Positions 1 through 14,453 are shown, numbered from the stretch's first letter. The stretch is DNA of 64,000 nt from Bacteroidota bacterium (GCA_023957335.1 JAMLHC010000004.1:62001-126000), one strand, 5' to 3'. Translations and numbers: made by a program. The notes: generated by a model from the sequence alone, not told the origin.

Positions 1-2
1 TG

Positions 3-74
3 TATGCCAGAGTGATAGAAAAGGCTGAAAATGAAATGAATATCCCTATCTTAAAAAGTCAGACACCTAAGTAA
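3..74 (+). pseudogene. IS3-family OrfA, C-terminal end (runs off the left edge)
   Basis: The frame starting at base 3 reads YARVIEKAENEMNIPILK and stops with TAA at 72-74. The acidic segment ending in I-P-I-x-K resembles the C-terminus of IS3 OrfA proteins, the DNA-binding and coiled-coil subunit of the transposase. The rest lies upstream of the window, so I cannot say whether OrfA itself is intact. Confidence 0.6.
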
Positions 75-82
75 TCCTTGAG

Positions 83-982
83 ATGAAAATGACCTATTCG
101 CAACATAGCCTAAGCGATTATTGTCGGTTATTTGGTGTTCCAGGCAATCGTTCTATCAGCATTTTAGAAAAAAAGAACATAAAAGTTTCCACAACGAAAT
201 GATTCTACAACAAGTCAAAATGATTCGGGAAGAACATCCACGATTGGGTACCAGAAAACTCATGGTTTTGCTGTACCCTTTCCTCCATGAACATCAAATT
301 ACATTAGGCAGAGATGCTCTGTTTGACCTTCTGGGGCATCACAAAAATGCTTGTTAAAAAACGAAAAAGACAGGTACAAACAACCTTTTCTAAACACTGG
401 ATGCGCAAGTGGCCCAACCTTGTAAAAACTATGAGGCAGACACCATAAACCACCTTTGGGTTAGTGACATCACTTATTGGAAATCCGGCAACCACACCTT
501 TTACATTAGTTTGATAACCGATGTGCGTTCACGTAAAATCATCGGATACAGCCTGGATAATAACCTAAAAGCTCAATCAAGTCTGGAAGCCTTAAATATG
601 GCTATCTCCTACAAACCCCATCAAACCGCCCACATCATCCATCACTCAGACAGAGGCTCTCAATACTGCTCTGCCGAATATGTAGCCAAGCTCCTAGAAA
701 ACAACATCAAAATAAGCATGACCGAGTCAGGCGAACCCGACAGACAATGCCTACGCTGAAAGAGTAAATGGAATTTTAAAAGAAGAATACCTTTACCAAT
801 ACAACCCTAAAAACATGGCTCAAGCTAAAGCTATTTTGGCTCAAACTATTCAACTTTACAACCAAAAAAGACCTCATTTGAGTTTAGAAAATCAAACCCC
901 AAACCATGTTTTTAAAACCCATACACGAAAGTTTAATAGACTTTGGAAATCCTATCAAAAAACTAATTTTGTAAACCCATGA
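83..982 (+). pseudogene. IS3-family OrfB transposase, broken by several frameshifts
   Basis: Translated piecewise, this region recovers a full OrfB. The start MKMTYSQHSLSDYCRLFGV (ATG at 83) jumps frame near 143 to RQSFYQHFRKKE (HTH_21-like). It jumps again in a poly-A run near 345 and in another near 428. The integrase core then follows: WVSDITYW, then HHSDRG, the first and second acidic motifs of DDE. A fourth shift near 742 leads to DNAYAERVNGILKEEY, with the catalytic Glu, and an end at 982. At least four indels are needed, several in homopolymers. This is either a decayed gene or a cluster of read errors. Without repair no complete transposase is made. Confidence 0.85.
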
Positions 983-1059
983 CAGGATGTAAATATTATT
1001 GTAAACTTGTATCAGGATTTAGCAACACAAACTGTAAACTTTTTTTAGGACGAGACAAT

Positions 1060-1134
1060 ATGCAACTTTTCAAAAGAACAGGAAGAGGACTTTATTCAAT
1101 AACCGAAAAAGCAAAAAATTATGTTGGAAGATAG
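1060..1134 (+). pseudogene. Short C-terminal remnant of an unidentified protein
   Basis: A 24-codon frame reads MQLFKRTGRGLYSITEKAK and stops at 1132-1134. It is open upstream for only a few codons, into the IS flank. The pattern G-Y-S-I-T-E-K-A looks like the end of a winged-helix protein, but it is too short to assign. It overlaps the next gene start by 14 bases in another frame. It may be the tail of a gene cut by the IS element, or chance. Confidence 0.25.
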
Positions 1135-1354
1135 TAATGCACTTTACGAAGTTTTACAAAAACTTGGGGCTAAAAAACCTTATTTAGAATATGCAGGACT
1201 TTCAAAATCGGGAGAAAAATCATACAACAAATTGGTAAGTGTCATTTATTCTCTTGAAAAAATGGGATTTGCCGTAAATGCAAATGATATTATTGATAAA
1301 CTTGATAAATTCACAACAGAAGCCGAATTTAGCCCAACTTGGTTTGAAAAATAA
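1121..1354 (+). CDS. Hypothetical small protein (77 aa) upstream of Fic
   Basis: The 77-residue product is mostly helical in character, lysine- and glutamate-rich, with no signal peptide or membrane segment. I do not recognise a family. It ends 6 bp before the Fic start, so the two are probably co-transcribed. Small genes directly before Fic genes can encode antitoxins, but this one shows no S/T-x-x-x-E-G/N inhibitory motif, and the Fic protein downstream carries its own. The start could be a truncated form, because the IS remnant and a broken frame lie immediately upstream. Confidence 0.5.
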   Translation: MLEDSNALYEVLQKLGAKKPYLEYAGLSKSGEKSYNKLVSVIYSLEKMGFAVNANDIIDKLDKFTTEAEFSPTWFEK

Positions 1355-1360
1355 TTAGAA

Positions 1361-2137
1361 ATGAAAAAGAAGTTACAAATAATTCCAACAGATTTGCTTG
1401 ATACTTATTTTAAGCAAGTACCAAAAACTTTGAAAATAACTTTTGAAGCGTTGGAAGACGCAGAAATTTCAACTGACACATTTAGTTTTTATGTATCGGT
1501 TTCGTCAGTATATAGTAGTAAAATTGAAGGCGAAAAAATAGAATTGGACAGTTATATTAAACATAAAAAATTTGGTATTGAATTTATACCCGATTACACC
1601 CAAAAAATTGATGATTTATACAATGCTTATACTTTTGCTAAAAGCAATGAACTCAATCAAAAAAACATTGCAGAAGCACATAAGTTATTAAGTAAACATA
1701 TAGTAGCGACAAATTGGCAAGGAAAATTCCGAAATCAAAATATGTATGTTACTACATCAGACGGAAAAATTGAGTACGTTGCAGCTTCACCTTACGAAGT
1801 AGAAAGTGAAATGAAAAAATTTTACAACGATATTTCTGTTTTACTCAAAGAAGATTTAAGTATTGAAGAAGTATTTTATTTTGCTTCATTTATTCATCTG
1901 ATTTTTGTGAAAATCCATCCTTGGAATGACGGAAACGGAAGAACTGCAAGACTACTTGAAAAATGGTTTTTGGCTCAGAAATTAGGGCATAAAGCGTGGT
2001 TTATACAAAGTGAAAAAATGTATTATAATCAGCATAATGCGTATTACAAAAACATCCGTTTGTTAGGATTAGAATATCCTGAATTAGACTACAAACAAGC
2101 ACTATCATTTTTACTAATGTTGCCTATTTCAATATGA
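1361..2137 (+). CDS. Fic-domain protein, class II (N-terminal inhibitory motif)
   Basis: Fic enzymes usually transfer AMP from ATP to a target hydroxyl. The catalytic loop HPWNDGNGRTAR lies at residues 186-197. It matches H-x-F-x-D/E-G-N-G-R-x-x-R except that Trp replaces the usual Phe, a variant I believe occurs in Bacteroidota. The inhibitory motif SSKIEG sits at 52-57, which makes this a class II, self-inhibited Fic protein. The length (258 aa) is short for the family, with no added C-terminal DNA-binding domain. It follows the 77-aa gene by 6 bp and overlaps the next start by 4 bp (ATGA). The target cannot be told from sequence. Confidence 0.88.
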   Translation: MKKKLQIIPTDLLDTYFKQVPKTLKITFEALEDAEISTDTFSFYVSVSSVYSSKIEGEKIELDSYIKHKKFGIEFIPDYTQKIDDLYNAYTFAKSNELNQKNIAEAHKLLSKHIVATNWQGKFRNQNMYVTTSDGKIEYVAASPYEVESEMKKFYNDISVLLKEDLSIEEVFYFASFIHLIFVKIHPWNDGNGRTARLLEKWFLAQKLGHKAWFIQSEKMYYNQHNAYYKNIRLLGLEYPELDYKQALSFLLMLPISI

Positions 2138-2832
2138 ATTTTCAAACCGTACAAAGCGGAAAAATGGTAACTTGCGACAAAGGAGATTGGGATATTATTG
2201 ATGACATTCACGAGTTCAACGAAACTTGGGTAAAAGAATGTGTTAGAGTTTTAGCAGATGATGGAACAATTTGGATTTCAGGAACTTTGCACAACCACCC
2301 ATCAATCGGAGTTATTTTGAAAAAATTAAACTTATGGATTATCAATGAAGTAATTTGGTTTAAAAGAAATGCAGCGCCTTTATTATCCAAAAATCGTCTT
2401 GCACCATCAACAGAATTAATTTGGATTGCAAGTAAAACAAAAAAATACTTCTTTGATTACGACACTGCAAAAATGATAAATGGCGGAAAACAAATGCGAA
2501 ATCTTTGGGAAATAAATGCTGAAAGACACAAAACATCGCACCCGACAGAAAAACCCGAAACGCTTTTGGAAAGAATTATTTTGCTTGGAAGTAAACAAGG
2601 AGACACCATTCTTGACCCATTCACAGGAAGCGGAACGACAGGAGTTGTAGCAAAAAGATTGAAAAGAAACTTTATCGGTTTTGAAATAAGCCCTGAATAT
2701 TTTGAAATTGCTCAAAACAGAATTAACGGAACATCTGTAAACGGCAAAGCCGTTTATTCCGAAAAGTTGCTAAAACAAGATGAACAATTAAGATTCTTTT
2801 TAGAAGAAAAAGCTGAATATGGTTTAACTTAA
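2134..2832 (+). pseudogene. N6-adenine/N4-cytosine DNA methyltransferase, N-terminally truncated
   Basis: The 232-aa product has the second half of a beta-class DNA methyltransferase: a target-recognition region, HPTEKP at 136-141 and the SAM-binding motif I DPFTGSGTTG at 161-170. Beta-class enzymes carry catalytic motif IV (D-P-P-Y) about 10-15 residues before the QSGK segment seen here at residues 7-10, so it should lie just upstream of this ATG. It is absent, so the protein should be inactive. Read upstream of the ATG in the same frame, inside the Fic gene, the sequence gives IIFTNVAYF where a D-P-P-Y-F motif would fall. This is a striking echo, but possibly chance. A functional start elsewhere is not visible. 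Confidence 0.75.
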
Positions 2833-3112
2833 TCCAACGCTTTTGGTAGCACATTTGCATTTTTCCAATCGCACATAGCCAAACAAAAAATGTAAAAGAA
2901 CTACCAAGCAACCGCACGGGACAGCCCAAAGACAGTGCAAACTTGACAACAAACCAACTCGACTGAAATGAACCACTACCTGTAACAGCGGTTTGGCAAA
3001 CGTGGCCGGTGAAGTGCTTCTATTGAGCTTTTGTGCAAGGTTGAACAGTAGAAATTCTATTCAACTTTTGTGCTAAAATCGGCTCCATCGCCAATTTGCA
3101 AACCGTTAGCCA
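2833..3112 (+). repeat. Intergenic region with two imperfect long palindromes
   Basis: No gene is seen here. A first imperfect inverted repeat pairs GCTTTTGGTAGCACATTTGC (from 2840) with a segment ending near 2912 (ACTACCAAGC). A second pairs CGGTTTGGCAAA (2989-3000) with TTTGCAAACCG (3095-3105). Inside the second lie a smaller hairpin (GTTGAACAGTAGAA / ATTCTATTCAAC, about 3040-3065) and two copies of CTTTTGTGC flanking it. Large hairpins of this kind follow accessory genes in Bacteroidota and recall cassette recombination sites, but the ends do not fit the classical attC core. Confidence 0.5.
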
Positions 3113-3225
3113 GAATTTTAAAACCACACTATTGCTCTCCAATATGTTTTTAAATGCCTTATTAACTATCTATTAGTCTTGACAAATGTGAGTATTTCAA
3201 TGCAATGTTCCTCTTGCACACAAGA

Positions 3226-3282
3226 ATGACATTTGTCATGCTTCCACATGAGATATATCATTTTTTTGGGTGATATTTATCA
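3226..3282 (+). promoter_or_regulatory. Three phased dyad operators, 22 bp apart
   Basis: Three 12-bp dyads occur: TGACATTTGTCA (3227-3238), TGAGATATATCA (3249-3260) and TGATATTTATCA (3271-3282). Their starts are exactly 22 bp apart, close to two helical turns, so bound dimers would lie on one face of the DNA. Two of the three are followed by TGCTT. A weaker relative, TGACAAATGTGA, lies at 3180-3191. The array is just before the ModE-like regulator gene, so autoregulation is a natural reading. CRP/FNR-type factors also bind TGA-n6-TCA dyads and are the main alternative. Confidence 0.6.
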
Positions 3283-3334
3283 TGCTTTGGGATTTATACC
3301 CCTGACACATTTGCATTATGTTTTAAAAAGCATA

Positions 3335-3685
3335 GTGTTGGAAACAAGAAACAAATATACTATTCGGGTTCGCATTTGGATTGATGAAGATAATGGACCT
3401 TTTTTGGGAATCGGGCGTGTTATTCTTCTTGAAAAGATTAAGGAAACGGGATCAATAACTAATGCAGCCAAAGCAATCAAAATGTCATACAGACAAGCAT
3501 GGCAATTAGTTAACGATATGAATAAACGTTCAAATCTTCCTTTAGTCGAGAAAATATTAGGGGGAAATAAGGGTAGTAATTCAAGGCTAACCAAAGAAGG
3601 AGAAAGAGTGATAAACGAATTTTATAGGGTAGAGAGAGAGATTAAAGATGTTGTCAATTCAAAAACAAATGAACTAAGACTATGA
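3335..3685 (+). CDS. ModE-type winged-helix transcriptional regulator
   Basis: From GTG 3335 (or TTG 3338) the product has about 116 residues and matches the N-terminal DNA-binding domain of ModE: GRVILLEKIKETGSITNAAK, then MSYRQAWQLV (recognition helix) and RLTKEGERVI (wing). The molybdate-binding MOP/TOBE domains of full ModE are absent, as in many short homologues. The longer frame from 3233 would begin inside the operator array, so I reject that start. The next genes, a TonB receptor and a molybdopterin-fold lipoprotein, fit a metal or cofactor theme. It may bind the dyads at 3227-3282. Confidence 0.75.
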   Translation: MLETRNKYTIRVRIWIDEDNGPFLGIGRVILLEKIKETGSITNAAKAIKMSYRQAWQLVNDMNKRSNLPLVEKILGGNKGSNSRLTKEGERVINEFYRVEREIKDVVNSKTNELRL

Positions 3686-3804
3686 TCTTAAACAACTTGT
3701 ATAATGCACAACATGATTTAGAAGGAGAGATATTCAAGTTTTTTTTTATCTCTCACTATTCAATTTAAAGCATAGTGAAAAAAGTCTAAACTAAAAATTT
3801 TCAT

Positions 3805-5811
3805 ATGAAAAAGCAAGTACTACTCATAGTGTCAAGTATGATACCAATCATAGCCTATTCTCAAACCTCGGGAAAGTTCAACAGCAGTAAAACTGACAGT
3901 CTAATATTTCAACTTGGTGAAGTTTCTGTTTCAGCAAATCATAAAGACGACATAACGGGACGTATTACCAAGAAAGAAATGGAAAATCAAAATCGTATTG
4001 AAGTCTCACGTTCATTAAATATGCTGTCTGGGGTTGCGCTCACGGGTTCCGGTCAAAGAAATGAATCTATGGTTTCAATCAGAGGCTTTGATTTACGTGC
4101 TGTACCCGTTTATATGGATGGCATTCCTGTTTATGTGCCTTATGATGGTTATGTAGATTTAGCAAGGTTTACAACCTTCGATTTATCTGCTATTGATGTA
4201 TCTAAAGGATTTTCCTCCATGCTCTATGGACCTAATGCATTGGGAGGTGCAATCAATTTAATATCAATAAAGCCCATAAAAAAATTTGAATACAATGGGT
4301 CAATGGGAATAATAAACACTGATGGTTATAGGGGAAATATCAACATAGGTTCTAATCTTGGAAAATTCTACTTACAAGGAGGCTATTCATATTTGCACAG
4401 AAACTCATATAGGATGTCAGGGGCTTATAAACCACATGCACATGAAGATGGTGGAGATAGGGATAATTCATATAGAACCGATAAAAAGATAACTTTCAAA
4501 GTTGGATGGACTCCTAATAAAAAACAAGAATATGTATTAGGCTATATAAACCAACAGGGCGAAAAAGGCACTCCGGTTTATGCCGGGGATGACCAACAAA
4601 ATCCACTTTATTCAAAACCTCGATATTGGCAATGGCCTGAATGGAATAAAGAAACTTATTACTTTTTATCAAATACTAAGCTCAACGAAAAGAACTATTT
4701 TAAGAGCAGAATTTATTATGATAAGTTTAAAAATACAATAAACAGCTATGATGATTCAACCTATACCACGCAAACAAAACCTTATGCTTTTCAAAGTAGA
4801 TATAATGATTTATCGTACGGAGGAAGTATAGAGTATGGAACAACCATTATTCCCAAAAACGATATCAAGTTTACAGCACAATTCAAAGAAGACATACACA
4901 GAGAGAACAATCTAAATGAGCCGGTTAGGCGCTTTGAAGACAATACAATCTACCTGTCAGTTGAAGATGTTTATACAATTAACAATAAGATTGTGCTTAT
5001 CCCGGGTGCAAGCTATAATGTGCGTAAGAATATAAAGGCACAAGGTTATAATAGTCAAACAGAAACGATTTTTGATTTTGCTAAAGCAGATATAAGTGCA
5101 GCATTCAATGCTCAATTAGGTGTTTTCTATTATTTCAAAGTTAACCATAAAGTCAGTGCTACCGCATCCCAAAAAACTCGTTTTGCTACAATAAAAGATA
5201 GGTATTCATACAAAATGGGTACTGCTATACCTAATCCTGATTTAAAGCCGGAAACTTCTAATAATTATGAACTTACTTATACAGGTTCCTTCTCTAAGAA
5301 ACTTGTATTACAATCCTCCTTTTTCTATAGCCATATCACAGATGCTATACTCAGTGTAAGTAATGTTCAGCCGGGTAAGTCACAAATGCAGAACACCGGC
5401 AAAGCAGAATTTATGGGTGTTGAACTATGCGCAAAATATGACATTTCAAAGAATCTTGTACTTAGTACAAATTATACATATATAGAAAGACACAATCTGA
5501 CAAATCCGTCCATACTGTTCACCGATGTACCTTATACCAAAATTTTTTCCTATATCCATTACATACCAATAAAGCAAATCAGCTTAATGGCAAGTTCAGA
5601 ATATAATTCAGTACGATATAGTACAAGCTATGGTACAAAAGCACCGGAGTTTATCATTTTCAATTCGGTCGTATCAGGACAGATATATAAATTTCTTAGC
5701 ATTGAGGCAGGCGTCAATAATATCTTTGACAAAAACTATATGATTTCCGAAGGGTACCCCGAAGAAGGTAGAAACTTTTTTGTTACACTTAGATTCTATA
5801 ATTTCAATTAA
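3805..5811 (+). CDS. TonB-dependent outer-membrane receptor
   Basis: The 668-aa protein starts with a signal peptide (MKKQVLLIVSSMIPIIAYSQ). A plug domain follows, with SVSIRG-like MVSIRGFDLR and YGPNALGGAINLIS near residues 90-155, and then a beta-barrel ending in the aromatic-rich NFFVTLRFYNFN. Such receptors import scarce ligands (siderophores, cobalamin, metal chelates, glycans) across the outer membrane with energy from TonB-ExbBD. No SusD partner or carboxypeptidase-like N-terminal extension is present, which argues against a glycan PUL. The lipoprotein gene starts 6 bp after its stop. The ligand is unknown, and the neighbours suggest molybdenum, tungsten or a cofactor. Confidence 0.9.
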   Translation: MKKQVLLIVSSMIPIIAYSQTSGKFNSSKTDSLIFQLGEVSVSANHKDDITGRITKKEMENQNRIEVSRSLNMLSGVALTGSGQRNESMVSIRGFDLRAVPVYMDGIPVYVPYDGYVDLARFTTFDLSAIDVSKGFSSMLYGPNALGGAINLISIKPIKKFEYNGSMGIINTDGYRGNINIGSNLGKFYLQGGYSYLHRNSYRMSGAYKPHAHEDGGDRDNSYRTDKKITFKVGWTPNKKQEYVLGYINQQGEKGTPVYAGDDQQNPLYSKPRYWQWPEWNKETYYFLSNTKLNEKNYFKSRIYYDKFKNTINSYDDSTYTTQTKPYAFQSRYNDLSYGGSIEYGTTIIPKNDIKFTAQFKEDIHRENNLNEPVRRFEDNTIYLSVEDVYTINNKIVLIPGASYNVRKNIKAQGYNSQTETIFDFAKADISAAFNAQLGVFYYFKVNHKVSATASQKTRFATIKDRYSYKMGTAIPNPDLKPETSNNYELTYTGSFSKKLVLQSSFFYSHITDAILSVSNVQPGKSQMQNTGKAEFMGVELCAKYDISKNLVLSTNYTYIERHNLTNPSILFTDVPYTKIFSYIHYIPIKQISLMASSEYNSVRYSTSYGTKAPEFIIFNSVVSGQIYKFLSIEAGVNNIFDKNYMISEGYPEEGRNFFVTLRFYNFN

Positions 5812-5817
5812 ACATAT

Positions 5818-6447
5818 ATGAAAAAAATCACATTAACAATCACGGCTATTGCAACAATTCTATTCTTAGGAAGTTGTCATAATTTTAAATCTGAAAACAC
5901 AGCAAATTCAATTAAATCAACTAACAACGACACACTCAATATTTCAAAAGAACAAAATAACTCAGACGCATGCATGGCTCCAATTCCTGCTGCAGATAGT
6001 GCAAAATACATCAGTAATCGAGTGACAGTCATGGGAGAAGTAGAAAATGAGTTAATACTAACCGTAGATTCCCTTAAAAAAATGAATGTTGTTACAATTG
6101 AAAATTTTAATGTCGTTTGTCAGAACGGGTCAAACATGAAAGAGAATAAAAACTGCAAAGGGGTTCTCCTTAAAGATATATTAGATAAAGCAAAAATAAA
6201 ACAACACAATCATAAAGACCGCAATTTTTACATTGTTGCCCGTGCTACAGATAATTATAAAGCCACGTTTTCATGGGCTGAGCTGTTCAACAACCCCACA
6301 GGAGAAAATGTCTATGTATTATTTGAAGAAAATGGAATGCCCATAAAGGTACAAGGTGACATGATTTTGATTTGTAAAAATGATATTAAAACAGGACCGC
6401 GACATGTGTATTGGCTAAAGAGTATTGAAGTTAGAAGAGTTGATTGA
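5818..6447 (+). CDS. Lipoprotein with a molybdopterin-oxidoreductase-like fold
   Basis: The 209-aa protein has a lipoprotein signal peptide with lipobox LGSC (Cys20), so it is a lipid-anchored envelope protein. From about residue 68 it resembles a minimal sulfite-oxidase-type molybdopterin-binding domain: VTVMGEVENELILTVDSL, then FNVVCQNG with Cys101 where the Mo-ligating Cys lies in the family, then KGVLLKDILDKAKI, and a late PIKVQGDMILICKND. It is much shorter than true enzymes and has no dimerisation domain. It may bind the cofactor or a related ligand without catalysis. It forms an operon with the TonB receptor (6 bp gap). Confidence 0.6.
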   Translation: MKKITLTITAIATILFLGSCHNFKSENTANSIKSTNNDTLNISKEQNNSDACMAPIPAADSAKYISNRVTVMGEVENELILTVDSLKKMNVVTIENFNVVCQNGSNMKENKNCKGVLLKDILDKAKIKQHNHKDRNFYIVARATDNYKATFSWAELFNNPTGENVYVLFEENGMPIKVQGDMILICKNDIKTGPRHVYWLKSIEVRRVD

Positions 6448-6907
6448 TGCAGAGAATAGGTATCTTCAATTAAACAAAGTTTGAAAACAATATATCAACT
6501 CAAGTACGAACAAGTTTGTACTGCAATAATTTTGTTACTTATTTATGCTATTCTTAGGGCGGTATTTCAACATAAAAGATAGGGCAGTCCTCAGCTATAT
6601 TTACCCATTTATATTAGAATGAAAGCTTTCATATAGCCAGCAAGTTGATTGGGAAGGCACTTCACTTTGTACAACATGAGGTTTTTCCATTAAGCGATGG
6701 TGGGAAACCCTATAATGACCTGAATGAGTATTACAGCAAGATTCTTAAAAAGAAAAATAAGCGACTGACAAAACACAGTGCAACAATTCAACTTGTAAGT
6801 TCATTATCTTGTGCTATTTTTCCAATTTATTCATTACACCCTTGCACACAATAATGATGTTACCCATTTATATTACATTAGAATACTATTTTTGCCCCGC
6901 CTCATTT
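6448..6907. other. Gap with a direct repeat pair and a possible promoter
   Basis: The 16-mer TTACCCATTTATATTA occurs at 6601-6616 and 6860-6875, each followed shortly by TAGAAT, 259 bp apart. Between them a 69-codon frame (6645-6854) shows no family features, and I do not call it a gene. A Bacteroidota -7 box TATTTTTG is at 6887-6894, 13 nt before the ATG I chose for the next gene. The direct repeats could be the scar of an insertion or duplication. Confidence 0.4.
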
Positions 6908-8026
6908 ATGCTCATTCAGTTGATTACATGGTTTTTTATTGCAATTGCTATTGTGCATATTGCAGTACAGATAGTGGGTTATTATGCACTTATTAAGACA
7001 CCTGCAATTAAACAAGACAAGCAAACAGAAGACGATTTACCCTTTATTAGCCTATTGCTGGCAGTACGTAATGAAGAAAAAAATCTTGCCCGTTGTTTGT
7101 TAACTCTCACACAACTTGATTATCCCAAAGAGAAACTGGAAATATTAATTGGAAATGATTGTTCTGAGGACAAGACAGGAGAAATCGCAAACTCTTTTGC
7201 AGCCGAATTTTCACACATCCATGTATTCCATCTTGACGGAAGTGAATATGCACAGACAAAAGGAAAAGCAAGGGTATTGGCATTTCTGGCAAACCGGGCA
7301 AAGGGTAAATATTTCTTCATTACAGATGCAGATATCGAGATGAATCCTGCGTGGATGAAAGGGTTACTGACTGCATTCGATGACAAGACTGCCATTGTAT
7401 CAGGGATGACCATAAGCGCAAACGGGGGCTTTTTCCCCAACCTGCTTGCACTTGACTGGATGTATTTTATGAGTCTGAACAACAGTTTTTCCAACATAGG
7501 CACCAATGTTACTGCCGTTGGCAATAATATGGCGATTACCTCAGAAGCATACAAACGCTCCGGTGGTTATGAAAACCTGCCATTTTCAATAACAGAAGAC
7601 TATAAACTCTTTAAGATAATTCACGGTATAGGATACAAAATAAGGAACCCTATTAACCCACAAACCTTGTTGGTGTGCGACCCTATTCCCACTTTTTATG
7701 ATTGGCTGCATCAGCGCAAACGCTGGATGAGAGGAGGTATGGAATTGCCTTTGTTATGGAAATCCCTGATGTTAGTGCTGGCGGTTTACTATATGGCTAT
7801 GATTTGGATATTGATTTTTGCGCCCAAGATTTGGGTCGCTATTTGGTTTGCCAAATTCATTTTGCAAAGTCTGCAACTCATTTCAACGTGCAATTTGATA
7901 GGAAAAAAACCTCCATCATTTATGCGTCTATTCTTGTATGATTTGTATCTTTATTTTGCGATTCCTATTATGGCAGTATTCTATGTACTCCCCACTCAAA
8001 TAGATTGGAAAGGCAGGAAATATTAA
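6908..8026 (+). CDS. Membrane glycosyltransferase, family 2
   Basis: A GT-A glycosyltransferase that adds sugars to a lipid or glycan at the inner membrane. From ATG 6908 it begins with a membrane helix (MLIQLITWFFIAIAIVHIAV). The catalytic domain follows, with LLLAVRNEEKN, the metal-binding TDAD (about 139-142), ITEDYKL as the general-base ED motif and QRKRW (about 269-273). Two or three membrane spans sit at the C-terminus. D, DxD, ED and Q-x-x-R-W together are typical of processive GT2 enzymes. An open frame extends to 6809, but it would start before the -7 box. It has no glycan neighbours, so the product is unknown. Confidence 0.88.
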   Translation: MLIQLITWFFIAIAIVHIAVQIVGYYALIKTPAIKQDKQTEDDLPFISLLLAVRNEEKNLARCLLTLTQLDYPKEKLEILIGNDCSEDKTGEIANSFAAEFSHIHVFHLDGSEYAQTKGKARVLAFLANRAKGKYFFITDADIEMNPAWMKGLLTAFDDKTAIVSGMTISANGGFFPNLLALDWMYFMSLNNSFSNIGTNVTAVGNNMAITSEAYKRSGGYENLPFSITEDYKLFKIIHGIGYKIRNPINPQTLLVCDPIPTFYDWLHQRKRWMRGGMELPLLWKSLMLVLAVYYMAMIWILIFAPKIWVAIWFAKFILQSLQLISTCNLIGKKPPSFMRLFLYDLYLYFAIPIMAVFYVLPTQIDWKGRKY

Positions 8027-8115
8027 TGGATATATATTGTAAGTCCAAACTTAAACTGCCCATACTTTTTGATAAACAGTGAGTTAAAACTCAGATTATA
8101 TCACAGCTTGTTTTA

Positions 8116-8937
8116 CTATTTATAGGATGCCCCAATTCCACTCCCCGGATACCAATGTTCAAGAGGTTCTTCCTTGAAGAATAAAAACTTTCTGCCGGTT
8201 TCCTGTGAAAATAAAGCCAATTTATTGGAACATTCAGCATTGTCGCTTAACAATAGGGTTTGATCATTGATAAGAGGAGCAATGGTCTTATATTCCTCGT
8301 ATTCGTACTCCGCAGAGTGGTTACTGTCATTGATAAATAAATCAATAGATTGTTCAAAATTTTTCAGACTTTGAATGGAATCTCCATAGAGAATTTCACC
8401 CACTTCTTTGTATTTGCCGCTTAACAAATAACCTGCCTGAGGATTGATATCGGTTCCATAATACCTGCCGGAAAATCCTTCTTCTTTATTCTTGAGTAAT
8501 GCAGAACAAAGCAAAACAGAGCCTAAACCCTTGTCAATGCCTGTTTCAATAACAACTTTCGGTTTCAAAATTCGAACAAAAGCATACCATCCTAATCTTC
8601 TGCCAAAACGAACTTCTTTATCTGCAAACCTTGCCAAAGGTGATTGAGCAGTTTCTATTTGAATGTGCTTGACAAGCTCTGTATTATTATTAACTTCACT
8701 AAAATAACCTACAATTTCTGAGTGTGATTTTCCTGTAATTCCGGCAATAAAATGAGCCATATACATGAGGTTGTCGGATGTCAGATTATAAGTATAATTT
8801 GTATCTTCTTTGGATGTAAACCCCCATTTAATAACCTGTTTGAATTGTTTGCACGGAAATTTCATGGCATACGCAACTCTTCTGATAAAATTCAAGAATG
8901 GCACTCTTTTTAAAAATCCCAGGATTTTTTTCTTCAT
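8116..8937 (-). CDS. Class I SAM-dependent methyltransferase
   Basis: The 273-aa protein has a Methyltransf_24-like core: motif I VVIETGIDKGLGS (residues 128-140), YYGTDIN with the acidic ribose-binding residue, and LFINDSNHSAEYEYEEY in the motif IV area. The N-terminal 100 residues are basic and specific to a subset. Related enzymes methylate sugars or small molecules of surface glycans, but the substrate cannot be named. It is transcribed convergently with the glycosyltransferase. It has an unusually good ribosome site (aaggagcg) and a -7 box TAAGTTTG at 8965-8972. Confidence 0.78.
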   Translation of the reverse strand: MKKKILGFLKRVPFLNFIRRVAYAMKFPCKQFKQVIKWGFTSKEDTNYTYNLTSDNLMYMAHFIAGITGKSHSEIVGYFSEVNNNTELVKHIQIETAQSPLARFADKEVRFGRRLGWYAFVRILKPKVVIETGIDKGLGSVLLCSALLKNKEEGFSGRYYGTDINPQAGYLLSGKYKEVGEILYGDSIQSLKNFEQSIDLFINDSNHSAEYEYEEYKTIAPLINDQTLLLSDNAECSNKLALFSQETGRKFLFFKEEPLEHWYPGSGIGASYK

Positions 8938-9109
8938 GTCTTTCGCTCCTTAATAAACAAGCAACAAACTTATCTCAAATAACAAATACACCAAAAGTAT
9001 TTCTGTATTTTTCAATGATATCAGCACCGAACACAATCAATCGGCACATGAAACAAATGTGAGGATTTGAGTGAGGTTTTTTTAAAATGAGCAGAAAATA
9101 AGATTTGTC

Positions 9110-10225
9110 TTAGTACCTGCTATAAAACACATTGGTAGAATACCAATTACCTCCTACTTGAATTCCTTCCCAATCATTTTTAGCCGGATTGCTTGTACTA
9201 CCGTCACTATTGGTGTCTCCGCCACGGGTATCGTCTTTATATGAAGTAAAAGAAGAAGAAGGGTCTGCCGCAAACTGATTATTATTTTCAGCAATTATGC
9301 TACTGTTGTTGGTGAATTTGAAATTAATATTATGTCCAACTACCATCACTTCATTGCCTGTTATCTGAAGTACCCCGTCCATTACATAAGGTGCGTCTTT
9401 TGCACTAAATCCAACTACTTTACCATTCAAACCGTTGGGCATAAGATTTAGAAAGATGCCATTATATTTATTTGTCTGGCTTATATTATCCGGATTGTGA
9501 AACAAATTACTTGGGTCTAAAGTGTATTCAGCAGCAATATATATGGGGATAGTGTTATCATAAAAAACATTGGACAACAAGACACTGACATCAGCATTTT
9601 TCATATTACTGCCATTAAATGCAGCATCCGTTTTTGCAGACGAGTTTTTGAAAGCATTATGAGCAAACGTACAATGGTCAAAGGTAAAATCGTTCGCATT
9701 GCCTAAACCGGAATATACATTCACCACTCCGTTTCCATTACCTCCGCCATACAAGAATTTGCAAAATTTAAATGAAGAGCCATGCTGTTCTGCGCGCATT
9801 GTGATACCGCCCCAATCGCCTTTCTCCGGTTTGGAAGCATTGTAATCCCCGTTATTATCTCCACAATACTCATCATCTTTGAACGAGGTGAAAATAATCG
9901 GTTTACTTTCTAATCCCTCTGCAGTAACTTTTGCTAATATTTCCATCCCGCACTTTGAGTTCTGAAATTTGATGATAGCTCCTTCTTCTATTGTCAAAGG
10001 CGCATTCACATCAATCCAACTCCTTATCACATATACTTTGCCGCTTTTCCATGTGGTAGGTTCATTGATATCCCTGAAAATCTCAGTTGTATCACAAGAA
10101 GGTTTTGTGCCGGTGTTGTTGTGTTTGTTGTTATCATCTTTTTTGTCCTTTTTGCAAGCAGAAATTATGCTTGTTAATGCAAACAAAACACAAATTACTG
10201 TAGTGAACGTGATTTTTCTTTTCAT
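9110..10225 (-). CDS. Parallel beta-helix lipoprotein
   Basis: The 371-aa product begins with a signal peptide and lipobox ISAC (Cys24) followed by a lysine- and asparagine-rich linker, so it is probably an envelope or surface lipoprotein. The body (about 60-360) has the short repeated strands of right-handed beta-helix proteins. The segment FTSFKDDEYCGDNNGDYNA (with GDWGGI after it) recurs near the C-terminus as FTSYKDDTRGGDTNSDGSTS (with NDWEGI). These Asp/Asn loops look calcium-binding. No catalytic residues can be named. A -7 box TAGATTTG lies at 10265-10272 on the minus strand. Confidence 0.65.
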   Translation of the reverse strand: MKRKITFTTVICVLFALTSIISACKKDKKDDNNKHNNTGTKPSCDTTEIFRDINEPTTWKSGKVYVIRSWIDVNAPLTIEEGAIIKFQNSKCGMEILAKVTAEGLESKPIIFTSFKDDEYCGDNNGDYNASKPEKGDWGGITMRAEQHGSSFKFCKFLYGGGNGNGVVNVYSGLGNANDFTFDHCTFAHNAFKNSSAKTDAAFNGSNMKNADVSVLLSNVFYDNTIPIYIAAEYTLDPSNLFHNPDNISQTNKYNGIFLNLMPNGLNGKVVGFSAKDAPYVMDGVLQITGNEVMVVGHNINFKFTNNSSIIAENNNQFAADPSSSFTSYKDDTRGGDTNSDGSTSNPAKNDWEGIQVGGNWYSTNVFYSRY

Positions 10226-10572
10226 ACTTTTGATTTATTACTATGGTGCAATAATTTTCGGCTGCAAATCTATGTGAAAACTGTTTTGCGAATAAACAAA
10301 TTATTATTTTTATTTATATTTTGGCAAAAGAAGAAAAATCTTGTTTTTGATTAGCACTTACACCTGTCCAATATAAATTTCAATAAAAAGGGCATGACAT
10401 GTTTTCCCAAAAGGTTTATTTTGAGGATTTCAACAAAACAACACCATGCTTATTGCAAAGGCAAAAGCATTTTCCAATACGTTAAGCTTAATAAACAGAG
10501 ATAACGTCAGTCTGTCTAATAACTCAATTTTCTCATTAATCCTTTCGCAATACTATGCAAATAAATCCAATT
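10226..10572. other. Gap holding repeat copy 1 and the promoter of the beta-helix gene
   Basis: The right-hand promoter element TAGATTTG (minus strand, 10265-10272) belongs to the lipoprotein gene. The stretch 10364-10503 is copy 1 of an intergenic repeat whose second copy is at 11160-11259. No open frame of interest is seen. The sequence is AT-rich and looks non-coding on both strands. Confidence 0.45.
10364..10503 (+). repeat. Intergenic repeat, copy 1 (about 140 bp)
   Basis: It begins CTGTCCAATATAAATTTCAA and ends CTTAATAAACAGAGATA. It matches 11160-11259 in the same orientation at roughly 80 percent identity by eye. Copy 1 carries 39 extra bases (10448-10486) bounded by GCTTA at both ends, which suggests that copy 2 lost them by slippage. 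The two copies flank the 10573-10959 gene. Confidence 0.6.
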
Positions 10573-10959
10573 TCAGGAACTTAAAATTAGATTTATTTTA
10601 GAATATGAATCCCACTTTCTGAAAAAGAAAGTTTCGTAAAACGCCTTAAAATAGCTTTTCACAACCCAAAAATAAAGGACAAGTTCTTTGAGGAACTTTT
10701 TTTGGAGTGCTTGGTGACAACACCAACCACGGCTGGAAATAAGTAAAGAATTGTTGCCTAGATATTCCCATTTTACTTTTTCTACCTTACCATTTTGAGA
10801 AATCAACAAATCATTGTTTGTCCGAAAAATATAAACATTTTTATTATTGCTAATATCATCTATAACAACCCAGTGTTGATCGGTTAGTAGAGTGAGATTA
10901 TCCAGTTTTTGAGAATATCTTTGGAGTTTGGGAATTAAGTCTGAAATAAAAGTCTTCAT
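10573..10959 (-). CDS. Hypothetical protein (128 aa), possibly C-terminally frameshifted
   Basis: The first 85 residues read like a small conserved Bacteroidota protein, with LDNLTLLTDQHWVVIDD, VYIFRTNNDLLISQNGKVEK and WEYLGNNSLLIS as beta-strand-rich blocks. I know no function for it. After about residue 75 the composition shifts to aromatic and basic residues (WCCHQALQKKFLKE, FYETFFFRKW). That is unlike the start and suggests a frameshift or a fused non-coding tail. It lies between two copies of an intergenic repeat, in an AT-rich island without close neighbours. Confidence 0.5.
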   Translation of the reverse strand: MKTFISDLIPKLQRYSQKLDNLTLLTDQHWVVIDDISNNKNVYIFRTNNDLLISQNGKVEKVKWEYLGNNSLLISSRGWCCHQALQKKFLKELVLYFWVVKSYFKAFYETFFFRKWDSYSKINLILSS

Positions 10960-11417
10960 TTAATATCTCTATTTTGCTTGAACACAATCTGCAAATATAA
11001 ATAACAACCTATTTATCCAAAGTTTAATTTTTAAATTAGATTTGTTACCTATGAATTGTGTCTATCTATATATCTATTACCTAAAGTTTTCTTTTCCCTT
11101 TTTTTATGTATTATCACTTTGAGTACTCTTAGAGTTTTTTCATATATAAAGATTCATATCTGTCCAATATAACTTTCAATAAAAATGGCATGTTATAGTT
11201 TTCCCCAAGAGGTTATTTTAGGGCTCTAACAAAACACACCATCTTAATAAACAGAGATAGCTATATAATATGGGTACAAGCATGGATATTCATATTGCTA
11301 AAAATTAAACTATTCATAATCAGCTATGTGACAATAGATAAAACTAAAAATCAATTTAAACGATTCTCACCGAGTTTGCCATAATGATGCACACCATTAA
11401 TTTCATACCTTTGTGTC
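10960..11417. other. Gap holding repeat copy 2 and a promoter box
   Basis: AT-rich and non-coding. It contains repeat copy 2 (11160-11259). At its right end is the -7 box TACCTTTG (11406-11413), five nt before the ATG at 11418, implying a very short leader for the CoA-binding protein. No hairpin terminator with a T-run was found. Confidence 0.45.
11160..11259 (+). repeat. Intergenic repeat, copy 2 (about 100 bp)
   Basis: The sequence from CTGTCCAATATAACTTTCAA to CTTAATAAACAGAGATA parallels 10364-10503 but lacks the 39-bp inner segment. The sequences beyond both ends do not match, so the unit is bounded. Neither strand gives a coding frame. It may be a small non-autonomous element or a residue of a local duplication. 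Confidence 0.6.
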
Positions 11418-11783
11418 ATGAAAGAAAAGAAAACTTTGGTGTTGGGAGCCAGCACAAAAGAAGACCGCTACTCTAACAAGGCTGTTCGCTTGTTGCAACA
11501 ACACAATGTACCTATTGTAGCTGTCGGCAATCAAGAAGGAGAAATTAATGGTGTGCAAATCCAACGCAATTTCCCCGAACATGAGTCTATACACACTGTA
11601 ACACTTTATCTGTCACCCAAAAACCAGGAACCTTATTACGATAAAATTCTTAATTTAAAGCCGGAGCGAATTATTTTTAATCCGGGTACTGAAAATCCTG
11701 AATTTGAAAAGAAATTGGCATCAAACGGAATCCAAACCGATGAAGCCTGCACATTGGTTCTGCTCCACACAAATGCTTTTTGA
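11418..11783 (+). CDS. CoA-binding domain protein (YccU-like)
   Basis: The 121-aa protein is a single Rossmann-like CoA_binding_2 domain: TLVLGASTKEDRYSNKAV at the N-terminus (nucleotide loop G-A-S), PIVAVGNQEGEINGV, TVTLYLSP and IIFNPGTENPEFEKK. Family members bind CoA in crystal structures, but their cellular role is unsettled. The length is normal for the family. hflX follows 80 bp later on the same strand. Confidence 0.85.
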   Translation: MKEKKTLVLGASTKEDRYSNKAVRLLQQHNVPIVAVGNQEGEINGVQIQRNFPEHESIHTVTLYLSPKNQEPYYDKILNLKPERIIFNPGTENPEFEKKLASNGIQTDEACTLVLLHTNAF

Positions 11784-11863
11784 CCATGAACATTATTTTG
11801 CAATATGATTTCAACTGAAAATCAAGCATATTTTTCTGACTTTTGCACCCATCATTCTAAGCA

Positions 11864-13048
11864 TTGAATACTAAAACATTTTCCACTGCAATAAGGCAAG
11901 AGACCGCAATACTGGTAGGGGTTTCATACAAAATCCCTAGCAGATTGGGAGACAAAATACAATATAGCGACAACTATTTGGACGAACTTGAATCATTGGT
12001 AATCACTGCCGGAGCCAAAACAATAGGCAGAATTCAACAAAGACTCGAGTATCCCGACCCAAGAACTTTTTTAGGCAAAGGTAAACTGGAAGAACTCAGA
12101 ACTCTTAAAGAAATCCATGAACCGGATATGATTGTTTTTGATGAAGAATTAACACCTTCGCAGATTCGCAACTTGGGTGATGAGCTGCAAGATGTCAAAA
12201 TCATCGACCGCAGTGCACTCATCCTTGATATTTTTGCGCGAAATGCCAAAACCTCTCAATCCAAACTGCAAGTTGAGTTGGCTCAGTGCAAGTACCTTCT
12301 TCCGCGATTGACAAGGATGTGGACTCACTTGCAGAAACAGAAAGGCGGTGTGGGGATGAGAGGTCCCGGAGAAAAAGAGATTGAAACTGACCGAAGGGTA
12401 ATCAGGGACAATATCACCAGACTCACTGCTAAACTTAAGGAAATTGAAAAGCAAGGAATCACACAAAGGAAAAACCGGATTAATCTCAAGAGGTTTGCGC
12501 TGGTGGGTTATACCAATGCAGGCAAATCTACTGTTATGAACCTATTGTCAGGTGAAAAACTCTTGGCAGAGGACAAACTCTTTGCCACATTAGATGCAAC
12601 TGTTCGCAAAGTATATCTGCCTAATCCCGATGAAACCCAACCGGGTACAACTTTTTTGTTATCTGACACAGTTGGATTTATTCGCAAACTCCCTACCCTG
12701 CTTATAGAAAGCTTCAAATCTACACTGGCAGAAGCAATGGAAGCAGATGTGCTGATTCATGTCGCAGATTTTTCAAGCCCTCAATTGACAGAGCATATTC
12801 AGATTGTAAAAAACACTTTGCATGAAATTGGGATGGGAAATAAGCCCGTAATCTTGGTGTTTAACAAAGTCGATAAATTTCTGCAAGAGTATGAAACTCA
12901 TCGAGATAAGAATTTTGATCCACCGATGGATTTGGAAATGCTTAAGAAAACTTGGATTGCCAAGGAGAATACACCTATAGTATTGATTTCTGCTACCGAA
13001 AAAGAGAATATTGAAGAGCTGAAAAACTTGATTTACTCCTTTCTGTAA
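11864..13048 (+). CDS. hflX: GTPase HflX, ribosome-associated
   Basis: HflX is a GTPase that binds the 50S subunit and splits stalled or heat-damaged ribosomes. The 394-aa product has the N-terminal HflX domain with DPRTFLGKGK and DEELTPSQIRNL, the glycine-rich linker motif GPGEKEIETDRR (167-178), and a G domain with GYTNAGKST (215-223, P-loop), DTVGFIRKLP (G3) and NKVD (G4). The start is TTG at 11864, and no ATG gives the conserved N-terminus. It follows the CoA-binding gene, perhaps in one transcript. Confidence 0.95.
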   Translation: MNTKTFSTAIRQETAILVGVSYKIPSRLGDKIQYSDNYLDELESLVITAGAKTIGRIQQRLEYPDPRTFLGKGKLEELRTLKEIHEPDMIVFDEELTPSQIRNLGDELQDVKIIDRSALILDIFARNAKTSQSKLQVELAQCKYLLPRLTRMWTHLQKQKGGVGMRGPGEKEIETDRRVIRDNITRLTAKLKEIEKQGITQRKNRINLKRFALVGYTNAGKSTVMNLLSGEKLLAEDKLFATLDATVRKVYLPNPDETQPGTTFLLSDTVGFIRKLPTLLIESFKSTLAEAMEADVLIHVADFSSPQLTEHIQIVKNTLHEIGMGNKPVILVFNKVDKFLQEYETHRDKNFDPPMDLEMLKKTWIAKENTPIVLISATEKENIEELKNLIYSFL

Positions 13049-13247
13049 GCCAAGTTTTACAATACAAAAACTCTGACTGTATGGTTTATCATACATTGAA
13101 AATAATTGTAACTTATTGTTTTTGAGGGAGTAATATATTTTTAGATTATCGCTTAATTACTATAAACATAACAATCATCACAACTACACTGTATGGGTGG
13201 AAACTATTGACGCATATCCATACTACTTTCGCTAGCTGAAATTTTTT

Positions 13248-14453
13248 ATGTCAGACTTGGCACAAGTATCACAAATACATAATGAACTCAACAAACAATT
13301 TGCTTATCTAAAGCTATTGTATGAAAACCTACCTCTGAGCGAAAAAGAGAAAACAAAATGGGTTGAACTCAGGCGTGGCAAGAAAATCCTATCTCTGATA
13401 GCATTGCACAATCCGGGACTAAGAGAAAGTCTTCAGAAATATACTTTTAGCACTACTCAAGAAGAAACCCTGCCGGTGAGCAGAGAAAGCCAGTCTTTTG
13501 AAACATTATTGAGCAATCTAAATACATTTATCAATCAGAATCGGAAATCAAGCTTTGTGGACTTTTTGAATCTTGGCAAAAAAAGCGATACAGTCTCCAC
13601 ACTCAATCTATTTACCCTTACACAAGAAAACAATTTGGATTGCTTTCTTGAAGAGCAAGACGCTACTTTTATCAAGGATATTGAAAATAAAATAGAAGAA
13701 CAACAAGACATTGCAAACAAACTATGGCTGTCATTTCTGGTGTTTCGACAACTGACAGAAAGCAAGTCAGGCTTGAAAAAACACGGTTGTTTATTTGCAG
13801 AATACAGTCTTCCGGGCAATGAGAAAAATCTGTTCAACTTTCCGCTATTAGTTTGGGAAGCATATAATCATACAAAAACTCATAAAGAAAGAACATATTC
13901 AGGAAAACGCACACCTGTTACCGGTTTTGAAGAAATTACCCGAGAAATCTTTATTGAAACAGCCCTCAAACTCGTAGAAGGTAATACCAAAAATTTGATT
14001 GCCTTCTTTAGAAAGCAAGCAAAGTTTGACACACTCAATATTGAATCAAAAATCAGAATTAACTACCTGGTTGACAAAGCATTCGTATTGCCAAATAAGA
14101 TTTACGAAAACGGATTTTCTAAAAATCATGCTTTACTCAAAACCCTGTGTTTGCATGGTGGTTTGAGAAAAGAAGATATGAAGAAAGATGGCAGTTTACT
14201 TTTGGCAGAACTTCTCGAATCTGAATCATTCTTAACAAAATTACAAGACAATTCAATGGAATGGGTTGTCAATATTTCTGCAAATTCTAAACCTTGCAAA
14301 TTCAGTCAATTCAATAATTTGGATATAGTGCTGAAAGCTGAAAAATCAAGTGATTCCGAACTGATTGCAGAAGAAAACCACACTGAAGGTTTATGGGTTG
14401 AAACCATGATAGAAAATATAACTTCTGAAACCCAGCGATTTTTATCTATCTGA
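13248..14453 (+). CDS. Hypothetical protein (401 aa)
   Basis: No family is recognised. The protein is soluble, has no signal peptide, and is rich in predicted helices, Asn, Lys and Leu. It starts MSDLAQVSQIHNELNKQFAY and ends TSETQRFLSI. Residues around 190-290 (FPLLVWEAYNHTKTH, IFIETALKLVEG) look like a helical bundle. It stands alone, with no operon partner within 200 bp. Upstream (13178-13245) is a dyad GTATGG / CCATAC of unknown use. The consistent frame and codon use support a real gene. Confidence 0.75.
   Translation: MSDLAQVSQIHNELNKQFAYLKLLYENLPLSEKEKTKWVELRRGKKILSLIALHNPGLRESLQKYTFSTTQEETLPVSRESQSFETLLSNLNTFINQNRKSSFVDFLNLGKKSDTVSTLNLFTLTQENNLDCFLEEQDATFIKDIENKIEEQQDIANKLWLSFLVFRQLTESKSGLKKHGCLFAEYSLPGNEKNLFNFPLLVWEAYNHTKTHKERTYSGKRTPVTGFEEITREIFIETALKLVEGNTKNLIAFFRKQAKFDTLNIESKIRINYLVDKAFVLPNKIYENGFSKNHALLKTLCLHGGLRKEDMKKDGSLLLAELLESESFLTKLQDNSMEWVVNISANSKPCKFSQFNNLDIVLKAEKSSDSELIAEENHTEGLWVETMIENITSETQRFLSI

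Follow-up and report, generated by a model that had tools for sequence, protein, structure and literature searches.

A ModE-box-linked TonB-dependent receptor and a minimal sulfite-oxidase-family lipoprotein as a putative molybdenum acquisition system in Bacteroidia

Why would a ModE-type regulator, a TonB-dependent receptor and a lipoprotein related to molybdoenzymes share one locus? These three genes are tandem open reading frames on the plus strand (3335-6447) of the window, a 64,000-nucleotide stretch of DNA (C4:62001-126000) from the 2.77-Mb genome of a member of Bacteroidia, denoted as G000. A first-pass annotation had proposed that the locus serves outer-membrane uptake or sensing of molybdenum, tungsten or the pterin cofactor. 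Based on profile searches, operator motifs and comparison with a sample of 396 Bacteroidia genomes and with 108 genomes of the same order, we suggest with a probability of roughly 75% that the operon encodes a TonB-dependent system for molybdenum acquisition, which would take up molybdate or a molybdate chelate.

A conserved trio and its ModE-type operators

When the lipoprotein was searched against the 396 genomes, its relatives fell into a close tier of 16 genomes from 13 families (255-455 bits) and a distant tier of 19 genomes (50-95 bits). According to tblastn of the flanking DNA, regulator, receptor and lipoprotein genes stand together in 12 of the 16 close-tier genomes, which refutes the objection that the trio is not conserved as a unit. 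The order regulator-receptor-lipoprotein is found in G000, G002, G392, G172, G133, G109, G471, G115, G311 and G168, where the receptor of G168 is interrupted by stops and a second receptor is inserted. The order in G201 is receptor-lipoprotein-regulator, G139 carries a different receptor with the lipoprotein and the regulator, and the locus of G434 is truncated by a contig end. When the receptor was used as the query, 15 genomes were found, and a PF00174-type partner adjoined the receptor in 13 of them. Furthermore, receptor and lipoprotein distances were correlated: r was 0.94 across 11 loci and 0.82 once Pseudomonas had been excluded (Mantel p=0.0002). This shared divergence indicates that the pair is inherited together. 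Judged from the sequences, a conserved unit of regulator, receptor and PF00174 lipoprotein is close to certain. Considering that relatives occur in just five of the 108 same-order genomes, one of them 80% identical and from another family, and that the lipoprotein and the system are absent from the same-genus genome G064, the distribution is patchy. In G252, which lacks the molybdenum cofactor (Moco) synthesis protein MoaC, only a C-terminal receptor remnant (L050:7041-7214) lies ahead of an intact lipoprotein gene, and the system has apparently decayed following loss of Moco synthesis.

The regulator (3335..3685, plus strand) matched best to TIGR00637, the ModE N-terminal domain model (81 bits, E 4e-23, below the cut-off of 98.5), and a PDB sequence search aligned it with the solved ModE-type repressors 2ijl (E 7.5e-13) and 1b9m (E 3.7e-10). 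Only the DNA-binding half of ModE was matched, and a protein of at most 150 residues is too short to leave room for the molybdate-binding half. A di-Mop/TOBE molybdate-binding domain was not found in the regulator, and the window genome has no TOBE match anywhere. By these sequence features the protein is a stand-alone ModE-type winged-helix regulator with a helix-turn-helix (HTH) domain and not a full ModE, as the first-pass annotation had stated. A TOBE-domain protein was absent from 15 of the 16 genomes carrying the trio or the lipoprotein, most of which possess a ModE-type regulator and ModE boxes. Stand-alone ModE domains have been reported in Desulfovibrio, with the DNA-binding domain only and a sensing mechanism described as unknown (Rodionov 2004; PMC545781); the box there is CGGTCACG-N14-CGTGACCG, in contrast with the boxes described below, and modABC is present. 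A regulator homologue with 59% identity lies directly 3' of modABC in G476 (L100).

A 24-bp inverted repeat is common to the upstream regions of the trio loci. Its exact pattern, CRNTATKY-N6-AARCATANYG, occurs in only two places of the window genome: box 1 (CATTATGTTTTAAAAAGCATAGTG, 3314..3337) overlaps the start of the regulator gene and may mediate autoregulation, and box 2 (CACTATTCAATTTAAAGCATAGTG, 3754..3777) lies 27 bp 5' of the receptor start. The GTG start proposed earlier for the regulator, at 3335, overlaps the final three bases of box 1, so the exact start is uncertain; the reading frame is open from 3233. The E. coli modA operator, CGTTATATTGTCGCCTACATAACG, has the CGNTAT-N12-ATANCG geometry of the trio boxes, and the published ModE consensus, ATCGNTATATA-N6-TATATANCGAT, has it likewise (PMC545781). 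As sequence elements, palindromes of ModE-box geometry 5' of regulator and receptor are close to certain. In the Bacteroidia sample the exact pattern matched 24 rows from 16 genomes, compared with 2 when the reversed control was used, and most were at trio promoters. Other exact boxes were located 33 bp 5' of modA-TOBE-modB-modC in G139, at an operon with a divergent receptor in the same genome, and at a second regulator-receptor copy in G392, and the non-trio matches among the same-order genomes include a gene for a ModE-HTH protein followed by a different receptor (G007). A pattern of ModE-box geometry was present in 17 of the 24 upstream regions tested against 0.1 expected by shuffling, a count in which the Pseudomonadota part is independent and the Bacteroidia part, where the motif was derived, is not.

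Two FNR/CRP-like inverted repeats of the pattern TGAY-N4-RTCA, TGACATTTGTCA (3227..3238) and TGATATTTATCA (3271..3282), precede the regulator, on which a factor of the FNR/CRP type might act. Such a repeat was found within 200 bp of modE in nine of 11 other loci, where about 0.1 would be expected in total by shuffling. The moa genes of E. coli are controlled by FNR and ModE alike (PMC2408646).

Receptor and lipoprotein

The putative molybdenum importer (3805..5811, plus strand) is a TonB-dependent receptor with a Plug (PF07715, 71 bits) and a barrel (PF00593, 81 bits). While it shares this architecture with the siderophore, B12, Cu and PqqU receptors, it did not reach the cut-off of any named receptor family model, and it is part of a distinct lineage linked to ModE boxes. 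Neither SusD nor siderophore genes accompany it, which agrees with the earlier description of the locus. A role as pyrroloquinoline quinone (PQQ) receptor was rejected, because PqqU matches the receptor at 32% over 98 residues only and full-length homology is lacking. A second type of TonB-dependent receptor adjoins a ModE-HTH gene, a ModE box or both in L104 (G007), L103 (G003) and L055:2787-5345 (G168), so that ModE control may extend to more than a single lineage of receptors.

The lipoprotein gene (5818..6447, plus strand) begins 6 bp past the receptor stop. The lipobox Cys is residue 20, and the domain comprises only about 145 residues. It scored 34.3 bits with PF00174, the sulfite-oxidase-family model, against a gathering cut-off of 24, and is the sole PF00174 protein in the window genome. 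Four further Bacteroidia members and the Pseudomonas and Caballeronia proteins also passed this cut-off, as did every close homologue tested. In a profile comparison, Cys101 (codon at 6118..6120, plus strand) aligned with the RC of 'MRCVEAW' in E. coli MsrP (E 5e-5 for a single comparison), a Cys that ligates Mo in sulfite-oxidase-family enzymes. Cys101 does not vary among the 16 close homologues or in two relatives from Pseudomonadota, and the close tier has in common VCQSG, CKGVLLKDIL, HKDRNFYIVARA, KTGPRHVYWLKSIEV and the loop KTGPRHVxWL. Distant-tier proteins carry Asp/Asn or another residue at the Cys101 position and keep a K-[TP]-[GS]-x-R loop. Compared with MsrP/YedY and sulfite oxidase, the PF00174 core, the Cys at the Mo-ligand position and the GxR loop are alike, whereas the lipoprotein is lipid-anchored, has a domain of about 145 residues, and shows neither a dimerisation domain nor a twin-arginine translocation (Tat) signal. 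For the Pseudomonas homologue, the alignment with plant sulfite oxidase runs through GxRxVKWL, and the PDB sequence search reached 1ogp at E 0.011 only. Neither the lipoprotein nor a 23-row profile gave a sulfite-oxidase match in the same search. The conserved Cys101 and loop would fit a pocket retained for molybdenum or pterin, and are also compatible with an enzyme.

Two further groups of proteins were observed. A Cys-less, secreted lipoprotein relative, below the Pfam cut-off, is encoded at L057, L058, L059 and in 16 other distant-tier genomes. Similar small, uncharacterised lipoproteins of about 130 residues, with no Pfam match, are found in three genomes near a trio or a solitary lipoprotein (L044:10204-10602, L049:6566-6958 and L052:8271-8666). 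A copper/methanobactin function, considered because MbnP is encoded close to one of the solitary lipoproteins (L049), was dropped when nothing further supported it.

Molybdenum-related neighbours in two phyla

In two Bacteroidia the trio is embedded in the operon for Moco biosynthesis. The trio of G201 lies between moeA and TauE-mobA-moeB-moaE-moaCB, and that of G133 lies 3' of the moaCB-moaE-moeB-mobA-TauE-moeA genes on the same strand. In G453 the receptor belongs to a Moco operon, where moaA and TauE flank it and moeB and moaE follow further on, and in G403 it lies directly 3' of nitrate-reductase (nar) genes. Distant-tier lipoproteins adjoin moaE-moaA-TauE (L059) or modABC (L057, L058). 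MoaC is present in 14 of the 16 close-tier and all 19 distant-tier genomes (33/35 for both), compared with 193 of the 396 overall, an enrichment with Fisher p=0.0016 for the close tier and 3e-9 for both tiers that is inflated by shared ancestry. The window genome itself encodes moaCB beside a Mo hydroxylase of the xanthine dehydrogenase family, XdhC and a MobA-like transferase.

ModA was absent from the window genome and was found in only one of the 16 genomes with the trio or the lipoprotein, and WtpA in none of the 16. ModA is rare in the class as a whole (43/396) and is absent from 154 of the 193 Moco-making genomes, so most molybdenum uptake in Bacteroidia is unexplained. In comparison with ModE-ModABC of E. 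coli, the trio loci have the ModE-type HTH and the operator geometry in common, and the box in G139 precedes modA; unlike that system, 15 of the 16 genomes lack ModA and as many lack a TOBE protein, and the trio adds a TonB-dependent receptor and a lipoprotein.

Related receptors were also found in Pseudomonadota. On a P. aeruginosa plasmid, a receptor gene (33% identity over 675 residues) overlaps that of a PF00174 protein with VCQSG, beside moaA and narGHJI, and a perfect palindromic ModE box, CGTTATGTAAAAAAATACATAACG, lies immediately 5' of the receptor. Among Burkholderiales plasmids, that of Caballeronia carries a PF00174 protein with NifQ and a stand-alone ModE-HTH, and that of Burkholderia encodes a PF00174 relative next to a ModE-HTH. 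In E. coli, an operon encoding a substrate-binding protein, a FecCD permease, an ATPase, a methyltransferase, ModD (TIGR01334, 502 bits) and a TonB-dependent receptor has a ModE box, CGCTATATGTGTAAGTATATAGCG, at its head (L111, CP088398, 353-6827). Its receptor is 47% identical to the Pseudomonas receptor and 34% identical over 621 residues to that of the window. This cluster corresponds to prrA-modD-yc73-fepC (ECs1693-1699 / Z1961-Z1966) and occurs in 2122 of the 5426 complete E. coli genomes (39%). The homologous receptor behind a ModE box is shared with the trio, whereas the E. coli cluster adds the five other components, and no PF00174 lipoprotein was present in the stretch seen. The ModE box of L111 is perfect, and the cluster probably serves molybdenum. 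Receptor homologues of Paracoccus and Bartonella also have ModE boxes and FecCD-type transporters nearby, and the receptor operon of G175 combines a ModE box with a FecCD-type ATP-binding cassette (ABC) transporter.

Proposed mechanism, rival explanations and origin

Taken together, the link of the trio to molybdenum is strong. At sufficient molybdenum the regulator would likely bind the boxes and repress the operon, and an FNR/CRP-type factor would likely add oxygen or nitrogen-oxide control. When molybdenum is scarce, the receptor would likely use energy from TonB to import either molybdate itself or a molybdate-ligand complex, the latter being more likely. The lipid-anchored lipoprotein may then accept molybdenum on the periplasmic side, where its sulfite-oxidase-type pocket, with the thiolate of Cys101 and the KTGPRHVxWL loop, might be a site of binding or release and not a full enzyme. 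Import may be finished by an inner-membrane permease, of the TauE type in some Moco operons and of the FecCD type in E. coli, Paracoccus, Bartonella and G175; no such permease was identified in the window genome. A broader proposal, to which we give about even odds, is that ModE-controlled TonB-dependent molybdenum importers form one family common to Bacteroidota and Pseudomonadota, including PrrA of E. coli, in which the branch of Bacteroidota and Pseudomonas would use a shrunken sulfite-oxidase-fold protein as the periplasmic molybdenum acceptor in place of ModA.

Several observations weigh against molybdenum import by the trio. Molybdate normally passes porins, so a requirement for TonB would mean that molybdenum is either chelated or extremely scarce. 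Solitary lipoproteins with no close receptor occur in G199, G252 and G332, and no box was found at the receptor homologues of Azospirillum, Methylorubrum, G403 and G453, nor at the trio loci L053 and L054. The anticorrelation between trio and ModA was not significant (p=0.31), and absence of ModA is not specific to trio genomes. AlphaFold models of the full lipoprotein and of its trimmed domain, from three sequences, gave a predicted local distance difference test (pLDDT) of 33 and 38, and Foldseek on the trimmed-domain model of low pLDDT returned no meaningful match. As these models are uninformative, the assignment to the sulfite-oxidase fold rests on the sequence profiles, which disagree with the objection that the lipoprotein is not of the molybdopterin-binding fold; of the first-pass description, the family and the Cys at the Mo-ligand position are upheld by PF00174 and the alignment. 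In addition, the prrA-modD-yc73-fepC cluster was once proposed to import iron (PMC1890555).

The lipoprotein could be an active Moco enzyme, a minimal reductase of the sulfite-oxidase type that reduces or breaks the imported molybdenum complex or acts on an unrelated substrate. This is possible but rather unlikely: the lipoprotein retains the Cys and the KTGPRHVxWL loop, its Pseudomonas homologue can be aligned with plant sulfite oxidase and Moco is made in 14 of the 16 genomes, whereas the domain has shrunk to some 145 residues, the distant tier lacks the Cys yet also lies in Moco or modABC neighbourhoods, and the Tat signal that periplasmic Moco enzymes usually require is missing. We consider it improbable that the receptor imports iron as siderophore or haem, with ModE merely matching iron to molybdoenzyme demand. 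In its favour are weak matches of the receptor to the TonB-siderophore and TonB-haem models, none of which comes near its cut-off, the iron proposal for E. coli and the FecCD-type partners seen in E. coli, Paracoccus and Bartonella; ModE boxes, Moco operons, NifQ, ModD and nar neighbours oppose it. Moreover, iron cannot be deduced from a FecCD permease, because MolBC-A, which is of the FecCD/BtuC type, carries molybdate. MolBC-A is a molybdate ABC transporter of H. influenzae (PMC4031551).

Salvage of the pterin cofactor or its precursors in place of molybdenum would account for a partner from a pterin-binding family and for the two lipoprotein-bearing genomes without MoaC. However, pterin uptake is made less likely by MoaC being encoded in 14 of the 16 close-tier genomes; the exception G252 keeps a receptor remnant only, and PqqU, a known cofactor-importing receptor, shows its short match alone, which leaves salvage a slim chance. 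Slighter still is the chance of a system for tungsten or for discriminating tungstate from molybdate: the two metals are chemically alike and no result here separates them, but the genes nearby are those of Mo systems (nar, NifQ, modABC) and the molybdoenzyme seen in the window genome belongs to the Mo hydroxylase (xanthine dehydrogenase) family. Of the three substrates first suggested, molybdenum is thus favoured by ModE boxes, Moco operons and ModD, ModABC, NifQ and nar neighbours in two phyla, pterin has become less likely, and tungsten is indistinguishable from molybdenum.

TonB-dependent receptors and ModE regulation are both known; joined to each other and to a sulfite-oxidase-fold lipoprotein, with molybdenum as the ligand, they form a combination that is new to the literature searched. 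No TonB-dependent molybdenum system was described there, in line with the first-pass claim that no system of such composition was known; most subscription literature lay outside this scope, and an earlier prediction elsewhere is possible. A survey of molybdenum use lists only ABC systems for bacteria (ModABC, WtpABC, TupABC) and counts 278 Mo-using bacteria without a known transporter (PMC6147048), a gap that a TonB-dependent route would partly fill. If molybdenum import by the trio holds true, molybdenum would join the TonB substrates, a natural molybdenum-chelating ligand would be suggested, a receptor encoded by 39% of the complete E. coli genomes would be reassigned, and a molybdoenzyme fold would have been converted to a transport partner. 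How molybdenum crosses the outer membrane at trace levels would become a directly testable question.

Regarding the surroundings, an Rfam search of window positions 1-14000 gave no match to a Moco riboswitch, and the viral contigs scanned held no relative; a scan of genome contigs, for which few patterns were usable, returned two loci. Immediately upstream of the trio, transposase fragments with an rve integrase core were observed, together with a Fic protein and with a DNA methylase that seems to lack its N-terminal part (121-756, 1361-2137 and 2134-2832). Considering these neighbours and the absence of the lipoprotein from the same-genus genome, the arrangement suggests that the trio entered the window genome by transfer.

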